Below, piece after piece: positions 32,753 to 53,526 of a DNA stretch of 64,000 nucleotides. How positions within the stretch are numbered: position 1 is the stretch's first letter; each line of letters begins with the position of its first letter. A model generated the notes under the pieces. It ran no database searches. It was not told the origin of the DNA and worked only from the letters and a program-made list of their open reading frames with translations. A program made the translations under genes and the position numbers. Where the stretch lies: assembly GCA_018267275.1 (NCBI GenBank), contig JAFDYV010000004.1:682001-746000 (forward strand), given 5' to 3'. This DNA comes from Bacteroidota bacterium (GTDB taxonomy: Bacteria > Bacteroidota > Bacteroidia > Cytophagales > Cyclobacteriaceae).

Positions 32753-33349
32753 ATGATAGTTATGGATGCTCAATATTATGCAGTGCTTTGGGAACACATC
32801 AACCGTTACAAAAAAATTGGCTACGAAGATTTTGAGAAGTGTAAACCGTATTTTCAGATAGAGCACTTTAAACAACATAGCCTTGTTGTAAGATGCGGAG
32901 GCCCGGTAACCAAACAGTATTTTGTTGTAGAGGGTTGCCTCCGCACGTTCATGCCCGATGATGAGCGTGATCGAGAATACACCGTGCAATTTGCAGTAGA
33001 AGAATGGTGGGCCAGTGACTATATCGCCTACTATGCCGGAACGCCAGCCTTACTAAATGTGGAATGTCTTGAAGATGCTATTCTACTGTCCGTCCAGAAA
33101 AAGGATATCGAGACCCTCTATACTCAGGTTGCCGGCTTGGAGTCATTTTTTCTTCGGAAATTGGAAAACGCATTTGTAGCTTTTCAAAAACGGATACTGG
33201 GTAACTTAAAGGAAACTGCTGAACAACGCTACGATGAGTTCAGTCGACAATATCCCAATATTGAGCAGCGGGTAAAGAACTTTCAAATCGCCTCATACCT
33301 GGGTATAACGCCCGAAAGCCTCAGTCGCATACGAAAAGCACGCCAGTAG
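32753..33349 (+). CDS. Crp/Fnr family transcriptional regulator (first of three)
   Basis: 198 residues (or 195 from the ATG at 32762). The cyclic-nucleotide-binding-like beta-roll covers about 30-120, with QYFVVEGCLRTFMPDD and FAVEEWWASDYIAYYAGTPA. The helix-turn-helix at the end reads IASYLGITPESLSRIRKAR. The ligand is unknown; Fnr cysteines are not present. It is divergent from the thioredoxin/DUF1348 pair (253-nt gap, no other gene seen there) and 105 nt before the ABM gene it may control. Confidence 0.92.
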   Translation: MIVMDAQYYAVLWEHINRYKKIGYEDFEKCKPYFQIEHFKQHSLVVRCGGPVTKQYFVVEGCLRTFMPDDERDREYTVQFAVEEWWASDYIAYYAGTPALLNVECLEDAILLSVQKKDIETLYTQVAGLESFFLRKLENAFVAFQKRILGNLKETAEQRYDEFSRQYPNIEQRVKNFQIASYLGITPESLSRIRKARQ

Positions 33350-40082: not shown

Positions 40083-40220
40083 AATTTTTTTCTTTTTGTT
40101 TGTCGTTGTTGACGGTACAAAAGTGCGTGGCTTGACAACCGTTTAAAATGGACGATGTACGCGAGTAGATGGACGATTTTCTCGGAAAAAAACCGGATTT
40201 TAGCGGCTAATTGCACCACG

Positions 40221-40790
40221 ATGGACAATTTGATACGGCCATTTCTTGAACGGTATTGCCATGGCATGGTATTGACGACTGACACACTGAGCGAGTTGGA
40301 GAACCATATGACCATTGTAAAATATGCAAAGGATAAAATTTTGCTAGCCGAGAATCAAACGCACGACTATGCCTACTACATCTTACAAGGCGCAGCCAGA
40401 AGTTATTACTTAAAGGATGGCATAGAGGTCAACACTTGGTTTGCATTTGAAGGAGAGGTGATTGGCTCGCTCCATGCATATAACAATCTTCCCTCGCGCG
40501 AGACCGTGGAATTGCTAGAGGAAGCAACGTTGGTGTCTGTTAATCTGCGAACGTTAAAACCGTTCATTCATTCCAATCTTCCGATCAGCAATTTCATAAG
40601 GGCAGTCATTGAAGAGTATGCACAGTTTCTCGAAGACAGACTTTTTAATTCACAGTTCATGAGTTCGATGGAGCGATACGAGTTGTTGCTCAAACATGAA
40701 CCACAGGCGTTGCAACGGGTACCTCTCACCTACATTGCTTCCTACCTGGGAATTTCGCGGGAAACCCTGAGCCGGCTGCGTAGCAAGTGA
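40221..40790 (+). CDS. Crp/Fnr family transcriptional regulator (second)
   Basis: 189 residues from the ATG at 40221; the open frame upstream adds 22 weak residues. Beta-roll: AYYILQGAARSYYLKDGIE and FAFEGEVIGSLHAYNN. C-terminal helix-turn-helix: LTYIASYLGISRETLSRLRSK. No Fnr-type Fe-S cysteines. It sits between the divergent AhpD-like gene and a flavin oxidase 66 nt downstream. Confidence 0.93.
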   Translation: MDNLIRPFLERYCHGMVLTTDTLSELENHMTIVKYAKDKILLAENQTHDYAYYILQGAARSYYLKDGIEVNTWFAFEGEVIGSLHAYNNLPSRETVELLEEATLVSVNLRTLKPFIHSNLPISNFIRAVIEEYAQFLEDRLFNSQFMSSMERYELLLKHEPQALQRVPLTYIASYLGISRETLSRLRSK

Positions 40791-42407: not shown

Positions 42408-42438
42408 TTTGTATAGTTAGGAATCCTTACTATATTTG
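42408..42438 (+). promoter_or_regulatory. Bacteroidota-type promoter of protoglobin operon (TTTG-N19-TATATTTG)
   Basis: TTTG at 42408-42411, a 19-nt spacer, then TATATTTG at 42431-42438. Both boxes and the spacing match the housekeeping consensus TTTG-N19-TAnnTTTG. The first protoglobin start is 33 nt past the -7 box. Confidence 0.75.
42412..42434. promoter_or_regulatory. 23-bp dyad operator overlapping the protoglobin promoter
   Basis: Centred on A42423, 10 of 11 base pairs match: TATAGT(T)AGGA / TCCT(T)ACTATA. It fills the spacer and covers the first half of the -7 box, so a bound protein would block polymerase. A further inverted match, TTAGGA (42417) / TCCTAA (42441), extends downstream. 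Confidence 0.65.
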
Positions 42439-42471
42439 TATCCTAATTTATCCCAACCAAAAACACACATT

Positions 42472-43050
42472 ATGGAATTAACCATTAAAGGGTACGCCTA
42501 CGGGCATGTGGCGCAATCACCTGTAAGCATTGCGGATTTAGAGCTCTTAAAGAAGACTGTTCTTTTTGATGCAGAAGATGAAAAATACCTTAAGCTGGCA
42601 GGGGAAGTACTCAAAGACCAAACTGATCAGGTGTTGGATTTTTGGTACGGTTTTGTAGGCGCGAATGCTCATTTGGTTCACTACTTTGGAAAGAATGGTA
42701 CACCCAACATGGAGTACCTGACCGCTGTACGTGCCCGGTTTGGGCAGTGGATCATCGATCTATGTACGAAGCCATATGATCAAACCTGGCTGAACTATCA
42801 ACACGAGATTGCACTGCGACATCACTCTGCCAAGAAAAACAAAACAGATCAAGTTGATGCGGAGCCGATCATCCACTATCGGTATATGGTTGCTTTTATT
42901 TTCCCGATCACCGCCACTATCAAATCATTTCTGGCAAGTAAAGGACACGATACTTCTACAGTAGAAAAGATGCATGCAGCCTGGTTTAAAGCGGTAACGC
43001 TTACGGTCATTCTTTGGACTTACCCCTATATCAATAAGAATGAATTCTAA
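42472..43050 (+). CDS. Protoglobin-domain protein, cytoplasmic
   Basis: 192 residues from the ATG at 42472. The protoglobin fold is recognisable: LELLKKTVLFDAEDEKYL, FWYGFVGANAHLVHYF, FGQWIIDLC, then the proximal-His region YQHEIALRHHSAKKNKTD (candidate heme ligand H117) and HAAWFKAVTLTVILW. W58-Y59 match the distal Trp-Tyr pair known from archaeal protoglobin. It should bind heme b and O2, CO or NO; there is no output domain. It has no signal peptide. A second protoglobin gene follows after 32 nt. Confidence 0.9.
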   Translation: MELTIKGYAYGHVAQSPVSIADLELLKKTVLFDAEDEKYLKLAGEVLKDQTDQVLDFWYGFVGANAHLVHYFGKNGTPNMEYLTAVRARFGQWIIDLCTKPYDQTWLNYQHEIALRHHSAKKNKTDQVDAEPIIHYRYMVAFIFPITATIKSFLASKGHDTSTVEKMHAAWFKAVTLTVILWTYPYINKNEF

Positions 43051-43082
43051 ATAATTATCCAAACGAAAAAATCAAAACAATT

Positions 43083-43730
43083 ATGAAAATTGTATTACTG
43101 TTAACCGTATTGGCATTTGCCTCTGTTGGCTTTGCCCAGCAAACCAAAGTTCCTGCCGGATATACGTATGGCACCAGCCAAATCAAAAAATCACCCGTTT
43201 CTTTAGAAGAGCTAAAACTTCTTCAGCAGTCTTTGCTTTTTGGTGAAGAAGACATCAAGTATTTACGGATGTCCCACAACATCTTGAAAGATCAAACAAA
43301 TGACATCTTAGATGTTTGGTACGGGTTTGTTGCATCTACCCCGCAGCTGGTCTATTTTTTTGGAAATAAAACCACAGGAAAACCCGATGGTGAATACCTG
43401 GCGAAAGTGCGTGAACGGTTCGGCATGTGGATTTTGCAAACAGCCGAAGCCAACTATGACCAGAAATGGCTAGACTATCAACATGAGATCGGATTGCGAC
43501 ACCATTCTGCCAAGAAAAACAAAACGGATAATGTTAACTCTGTCCCAATTATTAACTATCGCTACATACCAGCTTTGACCATACCTGTGACTACAACATT
43601 AAAACCCTTTCTGGCCAAAAAGGGAAACAGCGCAGAGGAAGTAGAAAAAATGCATGCCGCGTGGGTAAAATCAGTGCTGCTACAATCTATCCTGTGGGGC
43701 CAACCATATATCAATAAGGGCGAATTTTAA
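43083..43730 (+). CDS. Protoglobin-domain protein with signal peptide (exported paralogue)
   Basis: 215 residues. The N-terminus MKIVLLLTVLAFASVGFAQQ is a standard Sec signal with cleavage after SVGFA. The rest is a full protoglobin related to the gene before it: LLFGEEDIKYLRMSHNILKD, VWYGFVASTPQLVYFF, YQHEIGLRHHSAKKNKTDN (candidate ligand H140) and HAAWVKSVLLQSILWGQPY. All heme-pocket residues seen in the first copy are kept (WY, IGLRHH). It would act in the periplasm. Co-transcription with the first copy is indicated by the 32-nt gap. Confidence 0.9.
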   Translation: MKIVLLLTVLAFASVGFAQQTKVPAGYTYGTSQIKKSPVSLEELKLLQQSLLFGEEDIKYLRMSHNILKDQTNDILDVWYGFVASTPQLVYFFGNKTTGKPDGEYLAKVRERFGMWILQTAEANYDQKWLDYQHEIGLRHHSAKKNKTDNVNSVPIINYRYIPALTIPVTTTLKPFLAKKGNSAEEVEKMHAAWVKSVLLQSILWGQPYINKGEF

Positions 43731-43745
43731 GCACCAACAAAACAT

Positions 43746-43769
43746 AAGGCAGATCGTTTGGTCTGCCTT
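43746..43769. terminator. Hairpin after protoglobin operon
   Basis: Stem AAGGCAGA / TCTGCCTT with an 8-nt loop, 15 nt after the stop of the second protoglobin. It lacks a U-tract (continues AACC), so termination may be partial. Confidence 0.5.
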
Positions 43770-43826
43770 AACCTAATCCGCCCTGGCAACCTGATTTTTA
43801 ACATTTAGATTAAACTGTTACATAAT

Positions 43827-44087
43827 ATGAGAGTAGACGTTTTTGACACTTACGTTGTCAGGAAAAATGGACAACTCATGAATTTTGATATTCTAGTTCC
43901 GGAGGGTGTTGACGCAGATCATGTATACCGCTATGGACGAGCCTATCTAGAGTCGAAGGGTGAAGGAAATCAATCGCTCACCGCTACTGAATGCCGACTT
44001 TGCCACGTAGAACAGGCAACGGAATCGGTAGCTATTGAAATTCGCAAAACGGGCTATTGCATTGTGGAGTTACACGGGTGCGACTGA
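43827..44087 (+). CDS. DUF2024 family protein
   Basis: 86 residues matching DUF2024: VDVFDTYVVRKNGQLMNFDI, AYLESKGEGNQSLTATECRLC and RKTGYCIVELHGCD. It has four Cys... three clear: ECRLCH (CxxC), GYC and HGCD, a pattern compatible with metal binding, but function is unknown. It lies 96 nt after the protoglobin pair in the same direction and may be in the same functional group. Confidence 0.88.
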   Translation: MRVDVFDTYVVRKNGQLMNFDILVPEGVDADHVYRYGRAYLESKGEGNQSLTATECRLCHVEQATESVAIEIRKTGYCIVELHGCD

Positions 44088-44236: not shown

Positions 44237-44257
44237 ATCAAAGTTTTGACAAATTTC

Positions 44258-44863
44258 ATGGGTAGTTTTTTTGATCTGACACTTCAGAATAAAAATTTAG
44301 ATGCCAAGATTGCAGCTGGACTTGAGCGGCTATCAAGTGCATTTCGGGTGTTGTTGTGGGAACAAGCGAAAGAATATGGACTCAGTCCGATTCAAATTCA
44401 AATATTAATTTTCCTAAAATATCACAACCAGAAATTCCTGAACGTCAGTTACCTGGCTAAGGAAATGAACGTGACTAAACCTACTGTTAGCGATGCGGTG
44501 CGCGTGTTGGAACAAAAGTCACTAATTAAGAAAACCGCGGATTCGATTGACACCCGGAGCTACAGCATTCAACTGACGGCTGCCGGAAAACGGATGGTAG
44601 AAAAAACAGAATCGTACGCATCATCAGTACAACAGTTGATCTCTAAAATCAAGTTATCAAACAAAGAATTGATTTGGGACGCGTTAAGTTCTTTGATTTT
44701 TGAGTTGAATAGATCGAACATTCTCACCGTGCAAAGAACATGTTTCAATTGCTCCTTCTTTAAAAAGGGTATACCTCATCAATGTAGCTTACTTAATATA
44801 CCACTTCAGGCATCTGACATACGCCTCGACTGCCCTGAATTTGCTGATATGACCACTCATTAA
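44258..44863 (+). CDS. MarR-type winged-helix regulator with C-terminal four-cysteine cluster
   Basis: 201 residues from the ATG at 44258; a TTG 12 nt earlier is less likely. The winged helix spans about 40-130: LSPIQIQILIFLKYHNQ, VSYLAKEMNVTKPTVSDAVR, RVLEQKSLIKKT and SIDTRSYSIQLTAAG. After a helical linker the tail reads RTCFNCSFFKKGIPHQCSLL and LDCPEF: C-x2-C-x10-C-x15-C. That spacing could bind zinc or an Fe-S cluster. Next to protoglobins it is a candidate gas or redox sensor (inference). Confidence 0.88.
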   Translation: MGSFFDLTLQNKNLDAKIAAGLERLSSAFRVLLWEQAKEYGLSPIQIQILIFLKYHNQKFLNVSYLAKEMNVTKPTVSDAVRVLEQKSLIKKTADSIDTRSYSIQLTAAGKRMVEKTESYASSVQQLISKIKLSNKELIWDALSSLIFELNRSNILTVQRTCFNCSFFKKGIPHQCSLLNIPLQASDIRLDCPEFADMTTH

Positions 44864-52956: not shown

Positions 52957-53526
52957 TCAAATTCTTGCCCGAATGCGGCTCAATGTTTCTAATGAGATGC
53001 CCAAATAAGAAGCCAGGTAGGTCAACGGAATCTGCTGAACAAAATGAGGCTGTTGCTTTAGCAGCAGCATGTAGCGTTGGGTCGCGTCCATTGTGTGGAA
53101 CTGAAACAGTCGCGCTTCCAACCACAGTGCATAATACTCGGTCATCAACAAGTCTAATTCTAATAGTCCTTTGTGCTTTTGTTTTAGTTCTTGAAAAGCC
53201 TGGTAATTGGTAACGCTGACGGTGCAGGGTTCAATCGCCTGAATAAATTCTTTACTGGGCTGCTGCAGCGTGTAGCTTTCCAGCGATACTGCAATGTCAT
53301 CTGTAAAAAATAGTTCAGTGGTGATTTCTTTTCCATCATTTAAATAGAATTTTCGCGCCACACCGGAAACAATTTGAAATCCTGATTTACATATTTCACC
53401 TGCCTGCAGCAAGTATTCGTTCTTTTGATATTTTTTAATGTGGGTGGCATTTTCTATAGCCTCACGCGCTTTTTCATCGAGCGATGCCAGATGCTGCTGA
53501 ATTTTTGAAAGGGAATTTTCGACCAT
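52957..53526 (-). CDS. Crp/Fnr family transcriptional regulator (third)
   Basis: 189 residues. Beta-roll: NEYLLQAGEICKSGFQIVSG and FFTDDIAVSLESY. Helix-turn-helix: LTYLASYLGISLETLSRIRAR. It closely parallels the one at 40221. The next gene downstream on the same strand is the DUF418-like gene. Confidence 0.92.
   Translation of the reverse strand: MVENSLSKIQQHLASLDEKAREAIENATHIKKYQKNEYLLQAGEICKSGFQIVSGVARKFYLNDGKEITTELFFTDDIAVSLESYTLQQPSKEFIQAIEPCTVSVTNYQAFQELKQKHKGLLELDLLMTEYYALWLEARLFQFHTMDATQRYMLLLKQQPHFVQQIPLTYLASYLGISLETLSRIRARI

Follow-up and report, generated by a model that had tools for sequence, protein, structure and literature searches.

Two distinct protoglobin lineages, to judge from their mature-domain sequences, were brought side by side in a Cyclobacteriaceae genome, and one of the two proteins carries a conserved Sec signal peptide. 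The genes lie in a 64,000-nucleotide stretch of DNA that was analysed as a whole (hereafter the window). Together with an operator, a DUF2024 gene and a gene for a MarR-family regulator with a tail of four cysteines (MarR-Cys4), all absent from the first-pass annotation of this DNA, they make the unit described here. The protoglobin family is known; its genetic setting is new, and the exported lineage has been conserved long in two phyla. Bacterial globins are treated as cytoplasmic proteins, a view from which this lineage would depart. The pair probably belongs to a MarR-Cys4 stress operon. We read the whole as a redox or nitrosative stress operon under MarR-Cys4 control, with one globin in the cytoplasm and one in the periplasm, a reading that we hold with as much reserve as conviction. 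The features of the unit are as follows.

42408..42438, + strand: promoter with embedded operator, also conserved ahead of the p1 genes of other genomes
42408-42411, + strand: TTTG box, presumably the -33 box
42417-42429, + strand: palindrome (operator) TTAGGAATCCTTA, recognised by conservation and rarity
42431-42438, + strand: presumed Bacteroidota -7 box TATATTTG
42472..43050, + strand: p1, cytoplasmic single-domain protoglobin, 192 aa (PF11563, match to 2veb, no signal peptide called)
43083..43730, + strand: p2, predicted Sec-exported single-domain protoglobin, 215 aa (PF11563, leader, AlphaFold model)
43083..43136, + strand: p2 signal peptide MKIVLLLTVLAFASVGFA, predicted cut before Gln19 (rule-based caller, relatives, Q-rule of PMC5837995 and PMC10653852)
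43745..43770, no strand assigned: stem-loop AAGGCAGATCGTTTGGTCTGCCTT between p2 and the DUF2024 gene (z -1.95; no T-run on the + strand)
43827..44087, + strand: DUF2024 protein, 86 aa, CRLC motif (PF09630, 98.9 bits; solved relative 2hfq)
44258..44863, + strand: MarR-family regulator (MarR_2, PF12802) with a C-terminal four-cysteine tail (CxxC ... C ... C)

A tandem pair of protoglobins

The two genes lie on the + strand, 32 bases apart, and their products share 56% identity. Profile search matched both to the Pfam family Protoglobin (PF11563; 101.8 bits for p1 and 96.3 for p2, cut-off 25) and to no other Pfam family, and the best solved relative of both is the protoglobin of Methanosarcina acetivorans (MaPgb, 2veb; E values of 1.5e-74 and 6e-69). 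The first-pass annotation was thus right in describing two adjacent, related protoglobin genes with the same heme-pocket motifs, since WYGF and ALRHH/GLRHH are present. The span it gave, 42408-43730, ends correctly with p2, but its first position is the start of the promoter, and the ATG of p1 lies at 42472. An alternative p1 start at the TTG at 42436 was rejected; it falls within the -7 box, and orthologues start at the aligned ATG.

Both proteins retain the pocket residues W60, Y61 and F93 and the proximal His F8 (H120). Of these residues, W60 gates tunnel 1 in MaPgb, Y61 is located at tunnel 2 and F93 acts as the ligand sensor (PMC3680402). Family, fold and these four residues are shared by p2 with MaPgb and with the Aeropyrum pernix protoglobin (7ute), the identity to MaPgb being about 53%. 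The AlphaFold model of p2 (pLDDT 85) matches 2veb with a target-normalised TM-score of 0.94, and the N-terminal extension that precedes the globin helices in the protoglobin fold aligns, with its GYxYG motif. What sets p2 apart from these two relatives is its Sec leader (the solved MaPgb sequence is leaderless), its place in a MarR-Cys4 operon and three changes in the G helix: F145L, V143P and I146T. While p1 retains F145, L145 and T146 are invariant in the exported clade described below, and P143 is found in nine of its ten members. These substitutions suggest that the chemistry of p2 has changed, and tell against a mere storage role. F145L was rejected as a sign of export: Leu is also found in leaderless relatives from Nitrospira, Nitrosomonas, Acidobacteriota and Myxococcota, so that it marks the wider p2 lineage.

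A different pocket was seen in protoglobins of Longitalea and Niastella (L029-L032), a long-branched Chitinophagaceae group in which Arg replaces the distal Tyr61 and Met directly follows the proximal His; their chemistry is possibly different.

A protoglobin lineage with a predicted export signal

The N-terminus of p2, MKIVLLLTVLAFASVGFA followed by QQ, is of the Sec/signal-peptidase-I type. A rule-based Sec/SPI caller scored it at 12.8 with a cut after residue 18, between Ala and Gln, and did not call p1; its background amounts to 2.5% of shuffled p2 sequences and 17 of the 59 open reading frames in the window. The first-pass proposal, p1 cytoplasmic and p2 with a signal peptide, is supported. 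A misplaced p2 start was also considered, but no start gives a leaderless full-length protein, the sole in-frame alternative before the globin being a TTG inside the leader.

The strongest evidence for the leader comes from evolution, since it is not peculiar to this genome. Orthologues of p2 came to light in one scan of bacterial genomes, in seven further assemblies of Bacteroidota (Cytophagales, Chitinophagales, Flavobacterium) and in two Burkholderiales, Rubrivivax and Advenella. The same rules called a leader in all ten exported proteins, that of the window included. Gln occupies position +1 in every one of them; the scoring gives a small bonus to this residue, so the exact cut position is partly led by it, though every one of the sequences does contain the Gln. 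The ten leaders differ in sequence and have the n/h/c build in common. Mean identity among the eight Bacteroidota proteins is 32% in the leader versus 86% in the mature domain, which looks like selection for a signal peptide and not for its sequence.

Gln at +1 of Sec/SPI substrates is known as the Bacteroidetes Q-rule (PMC5837995, PMC10653852), and p2 conforms to it with a positive n-region, a hydrophobic core, small residues at -3 and -1 and Gln at +1. Neither Cys at +1 (lipobox) nor a twin Arg in the n-region was present in MKIVLLLTVLAFASVGFA and the following QQ, as would be expected of a lipoprotein or a Tat substrate. Given its conserved Sec leader, the cytoplasmic location that is usual for protoglobins, though not defining for them, and that fits the leaderless p1, is not expected for p2, and we consider its export very likely. 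That the leader is non-functional and p2 remains in the cytoplasm appears most improbable: ten divergent leaders have been kept as signal peptides with Gln at +1, compared with a calling rate of 2.5% for shuffled p2, and residues 1-20 of p2 have low confidence in the model and lie outside the predicted fold instead of joining it.

The search for further signal-peptide members of PF11563, as proposed in the first-pass annotation, gave nine proteins in one clade with p2. An eleventh case lies on a plasmid of Agarilytica rhodophyticola, on a longer branch, with a leader that by eye ends in SA before G. Exported protoglobin genes are rare. They were found in two of 296 family genomes, and with 395 genomes of the phylum also sampled, only the genome of the window and one congener had them; most signal-peptide members come from metagenome-assembled genomes. 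No exported protoglobin was found in the open literature searched. Vitreoscilla hemoglobin, a bacterial globin of a different globin family, was once reported to be partly periplasmic in E. coli, a location later called a possible artefact (PMC3962134).

Separate ancestry of p1 and p2

In a tree of mature domains, from which the leaders had been removed, the ten exported proteins form one clade (support 99/97), nearest to leaderless proteins of Acidobacteriota, Nitrospira, Nitrosomonas and Myxococcota, while p1 groups among other Bacteroidota p1 proteins. A single clade of tandem p1 and p2 proteins was rejected in the AU test (p-AU = 9e-7). Recent tandem or local duplication is rejected by the tree and this test; p1 and p2 belong to separate lineages and are not two copies of one duplicated gene. 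A single origin of the exported forms is supported for the ten, and adding the Agarilytica plasmid copy gave p-AU = 0.21. Six genomes carry p1 and p2 together (that of the window and L003-L007); p2 was found without an adjacent p1 in Flavobacterium (L008 and L009, at this locus), Rubrivivax and Advenella.

Operator, operon and MarR-Cys4 regulator

Upstream of p1, the region TTAGGAATCCTTACTATATTTG places the palindrome directly 5' of the -7 box; we take the promoter boxes to follow the Bacteroidota consensus TTTG / TAnnTTTG. The palindrome is kept upstream of p1 genes whose upstream DNA is otherwise unlike. It is expected 0.02 times in the window, is present as a single copy in the 4.25-Mb genome and was found in 48 of 292 family genomes. 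In relatives, 44 of the 50 distinct instances examined precede one gene set within 2.6 kb (30/30 with at most one mismatch, 14/20 with two). A global NO regulator as the owner of the operator is unlikely, as the motif is single-copy in the genome.

Members of this gene set in the relatives are the protoglobin, DUF2024 and MarR genes, together with those for HTHP, a glutamine amidotransferase, a redoxin with a CPGC motif, a thioredoxin-like CPVC protein (77 aa) and a secreted protein about 240 residues long. The operator is followed by one or more protoglobin genes and/or the CPVC mini-thioredoxin, the secreted 240-aa protein or HTHP, then by DUF2024, redoxin and MarR; in the window the order is operator, p1, p2, DUF2024, MarR. 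In many operons, DUF2024 recurs between the globin or thioredoxin genes and MarR. The stem-loop at 43745-43770 is possibly a processing or attenuation point, and could stabilise or end the globin transcript. We did not find a description of this operon in the literature searched.

The MarR reading frame opens at a TTG at 44246, and the ATG at 44258 fits the orthologues better. Its winged-helix domain matches PF12802 with 45.2 bits and PF01047 with 35.7 bits. The four C-terminal cysteines do not vary among the intact orthologues whose genes adjoin a protoglobin gene in Bacteroidota, Chloroflexota, Acidobacteriota and Myxococcota, and the MarR protein beside the Agarilytica plasmid protoglobin has the same four. 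The solved MarR proteins found as sequence matches align to the winged helix only, without the cysteine tail. To judge from its build, the tail might be a site for a metal or Fe-S cluster, or else a thiol switch, and this regulator, which co-occurs with the palindrome, may bind it. Besides the window (44258-44863), MarR-Cys4 genes were seen beside protoglobin genes at loci L011, L014, L015, L021-L023, L026 and L110; the Rubrobacter copy (L034) is frame-broken in a draft contig. Both the regulator and the secreted 240-aa family extend well beyond the genome of the window.

Two further observations concern the sister operons. The CPVC mini-thioredoxin (77 aa; L081:1741-1971), with weak thioredoxin/glutaredoxin profile matches only, is the commonest first gene behind the operator. 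The secreted family (HPDFDDTPLWDEN ... WHPHWVVL; L081:940-1659) is strongly conserved and occupies the protoglobin slot in many of them; it had no Pfam, NCBIfam or PDB match, and its model is weak (pLDDT 66).

Putative function and alternatives

What would a bacterium gain from a globin on each side of its inner membrane? The role of protoglobins is still termed unknown in the literature (PMC3680402). Our best guess, about evenly poised between right and wrong, is that the operon serves in defence against reactive nitrogen or related species. In the mechanism that we propose, a MarR repressor whose four-Cys tail binds a metal or Fe-S cluster or forms a thiol switch would sit on the palindrome between the -33 and -7 boxes and keep the operon off until a reactive species modifies the tail and MarR is released. 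One protoglobin would then be made for the cytoplasm and the other exported unfolded by Sec, trimmed by signal peptidase I to an N-terminal glutamine or pyroglutamine, and loaded with heme in the periplasm. The globins may bind and convert a small reactive ligand, most likely a nitrogen species (NO, peroxynitrite, nitrite) and next a peroxide; in sister operons, thioredoxin-fold partners might keep thiols or heme reduced. More specifically, and tentatively, these genes may represent an undescribed MarR-Cys4 regulon that supplies globins to cytoplasm and periplasm alike; the dedicated Sec-exported lineage would then act enzymatically in the periplasm against reactive species of nitrogen or oxygen, in concert with thioredoxin-fold partners.

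Several analogies are consistent with such a stress operon. Thioredoxin-fold neighbours of protoglobin genes recur: the CPVC protein and redoxin in Bacteroidota, a glutaredoxin in Chloroflexota (L021), AhpC/TSA in Advenella (L016) and yghU in Agarilytica. HTHP, a heme protein of an unrelated family (PF11534) encoded in the same operator-bearing operons of relatives, has peroxidatic activity (PMC4813847). A plasmid of Hymenobacter volaticus carries, in this order, genes for hmpA, Rrf2, catalase, the secreted protein, HTHP, protoglobin, DUF2024 and MarR. In vitro, MaPgb isomerises peroxynitrite and reduces nitrite (PMC4020757), and the Nitrosococcus protoglobin gene Noc1089, numbered beside that of nitrosocyanin (Noc1090), is energy-induced (PMC3772326). 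Against this reading count the rarity of the exported genes and the content of the window's own genome, in which neither the CPVC protein, HTHP nor a relative of the secreted 240-aa protein was found and nothing scored above the cut-off for a Cu nitrite reductase. Globin turnover also requires an electron donor. No flavohemoglobin-type globin was found in this genome; it has one truncated globin.

A comparable known arrangement is that of the NsrR/hmp nitrosative-stress regulons, in which a repressor governs an NO-consuming globin. hmpA and an Rrf2 gene do adjoin the operon in Hymenobacter, but the linked local regulator is of the MarR type with a C-terminal Cys4 tail, not Rrf2-type, and the operator is TTAGGAWTCCTWA. 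As a side observation, hmpA, Rrf2 and catalase lie immediately 5' of the protoglobin operon there (plasmid unnamed6, 684-4221, L113; also L111), an arrangement that forms a plasmid-borne nitrosative/oxidative stress island.

The same neighbours also allow for defence against peroxide or hypohalous/thiol oxidants in place of nitrogen species, with the exported protoglobin as a weak peroxidase beside thioredoxin-fold proteins. HTHP and catalase in Hymenobacter, the AhpC/TSA and redoxin neighbours and the cysteine tail of MarR all fit; catalase, however, is a neighbour in one genome only, and protoglobins are not known as efficient peroxidases. We consider this account possible, if rather unlikely. 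Less probable still is a ligand carrier or reservoir, a periplasmic globin that takes up O2, NO or heme and passes it on without acting as a catalyst. The operon has no reductase gene, and O2, CO and NO bind reversibly to protoglobin in vitro (PMC3680402), yet a stress-type regulator, the thiol-redox neighbours and the G-helix changes of p2 speak against mere carriage.

The first-pass annotation had taken the inside/outside pair to suggest gas detoxification or sensing across the membrane. The pair recurs in six genomes and detoxification is compatible with its neighbours, whereas sensing by p1 and p2 is very improbable despite the fold that protoglobins share with globin-coupled sensors: p2 occurs without p1 beside it, control falls to another protein, MarR, which itself has a cysteine tail, and neither p1 (192 aa) nor p2 (215 aa), with PF11563 as their only domain, has the C-terminal transmitter domain of HemAT, AfGcHK or BpeGReg, to which identity is about 10-15%.

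For the stress operon that we favour, the conserved exported lineage, its own operator and regulator, and the recurring redox partners provide a directly testable genetic context for the protoglobin family. Elsewhere in the 64-kb window, we noted three related Crp-type regulators (40155-40790, 32753-33349 and 52957-53526), one of them upstream of the amine-oxidase gene next to the globins.
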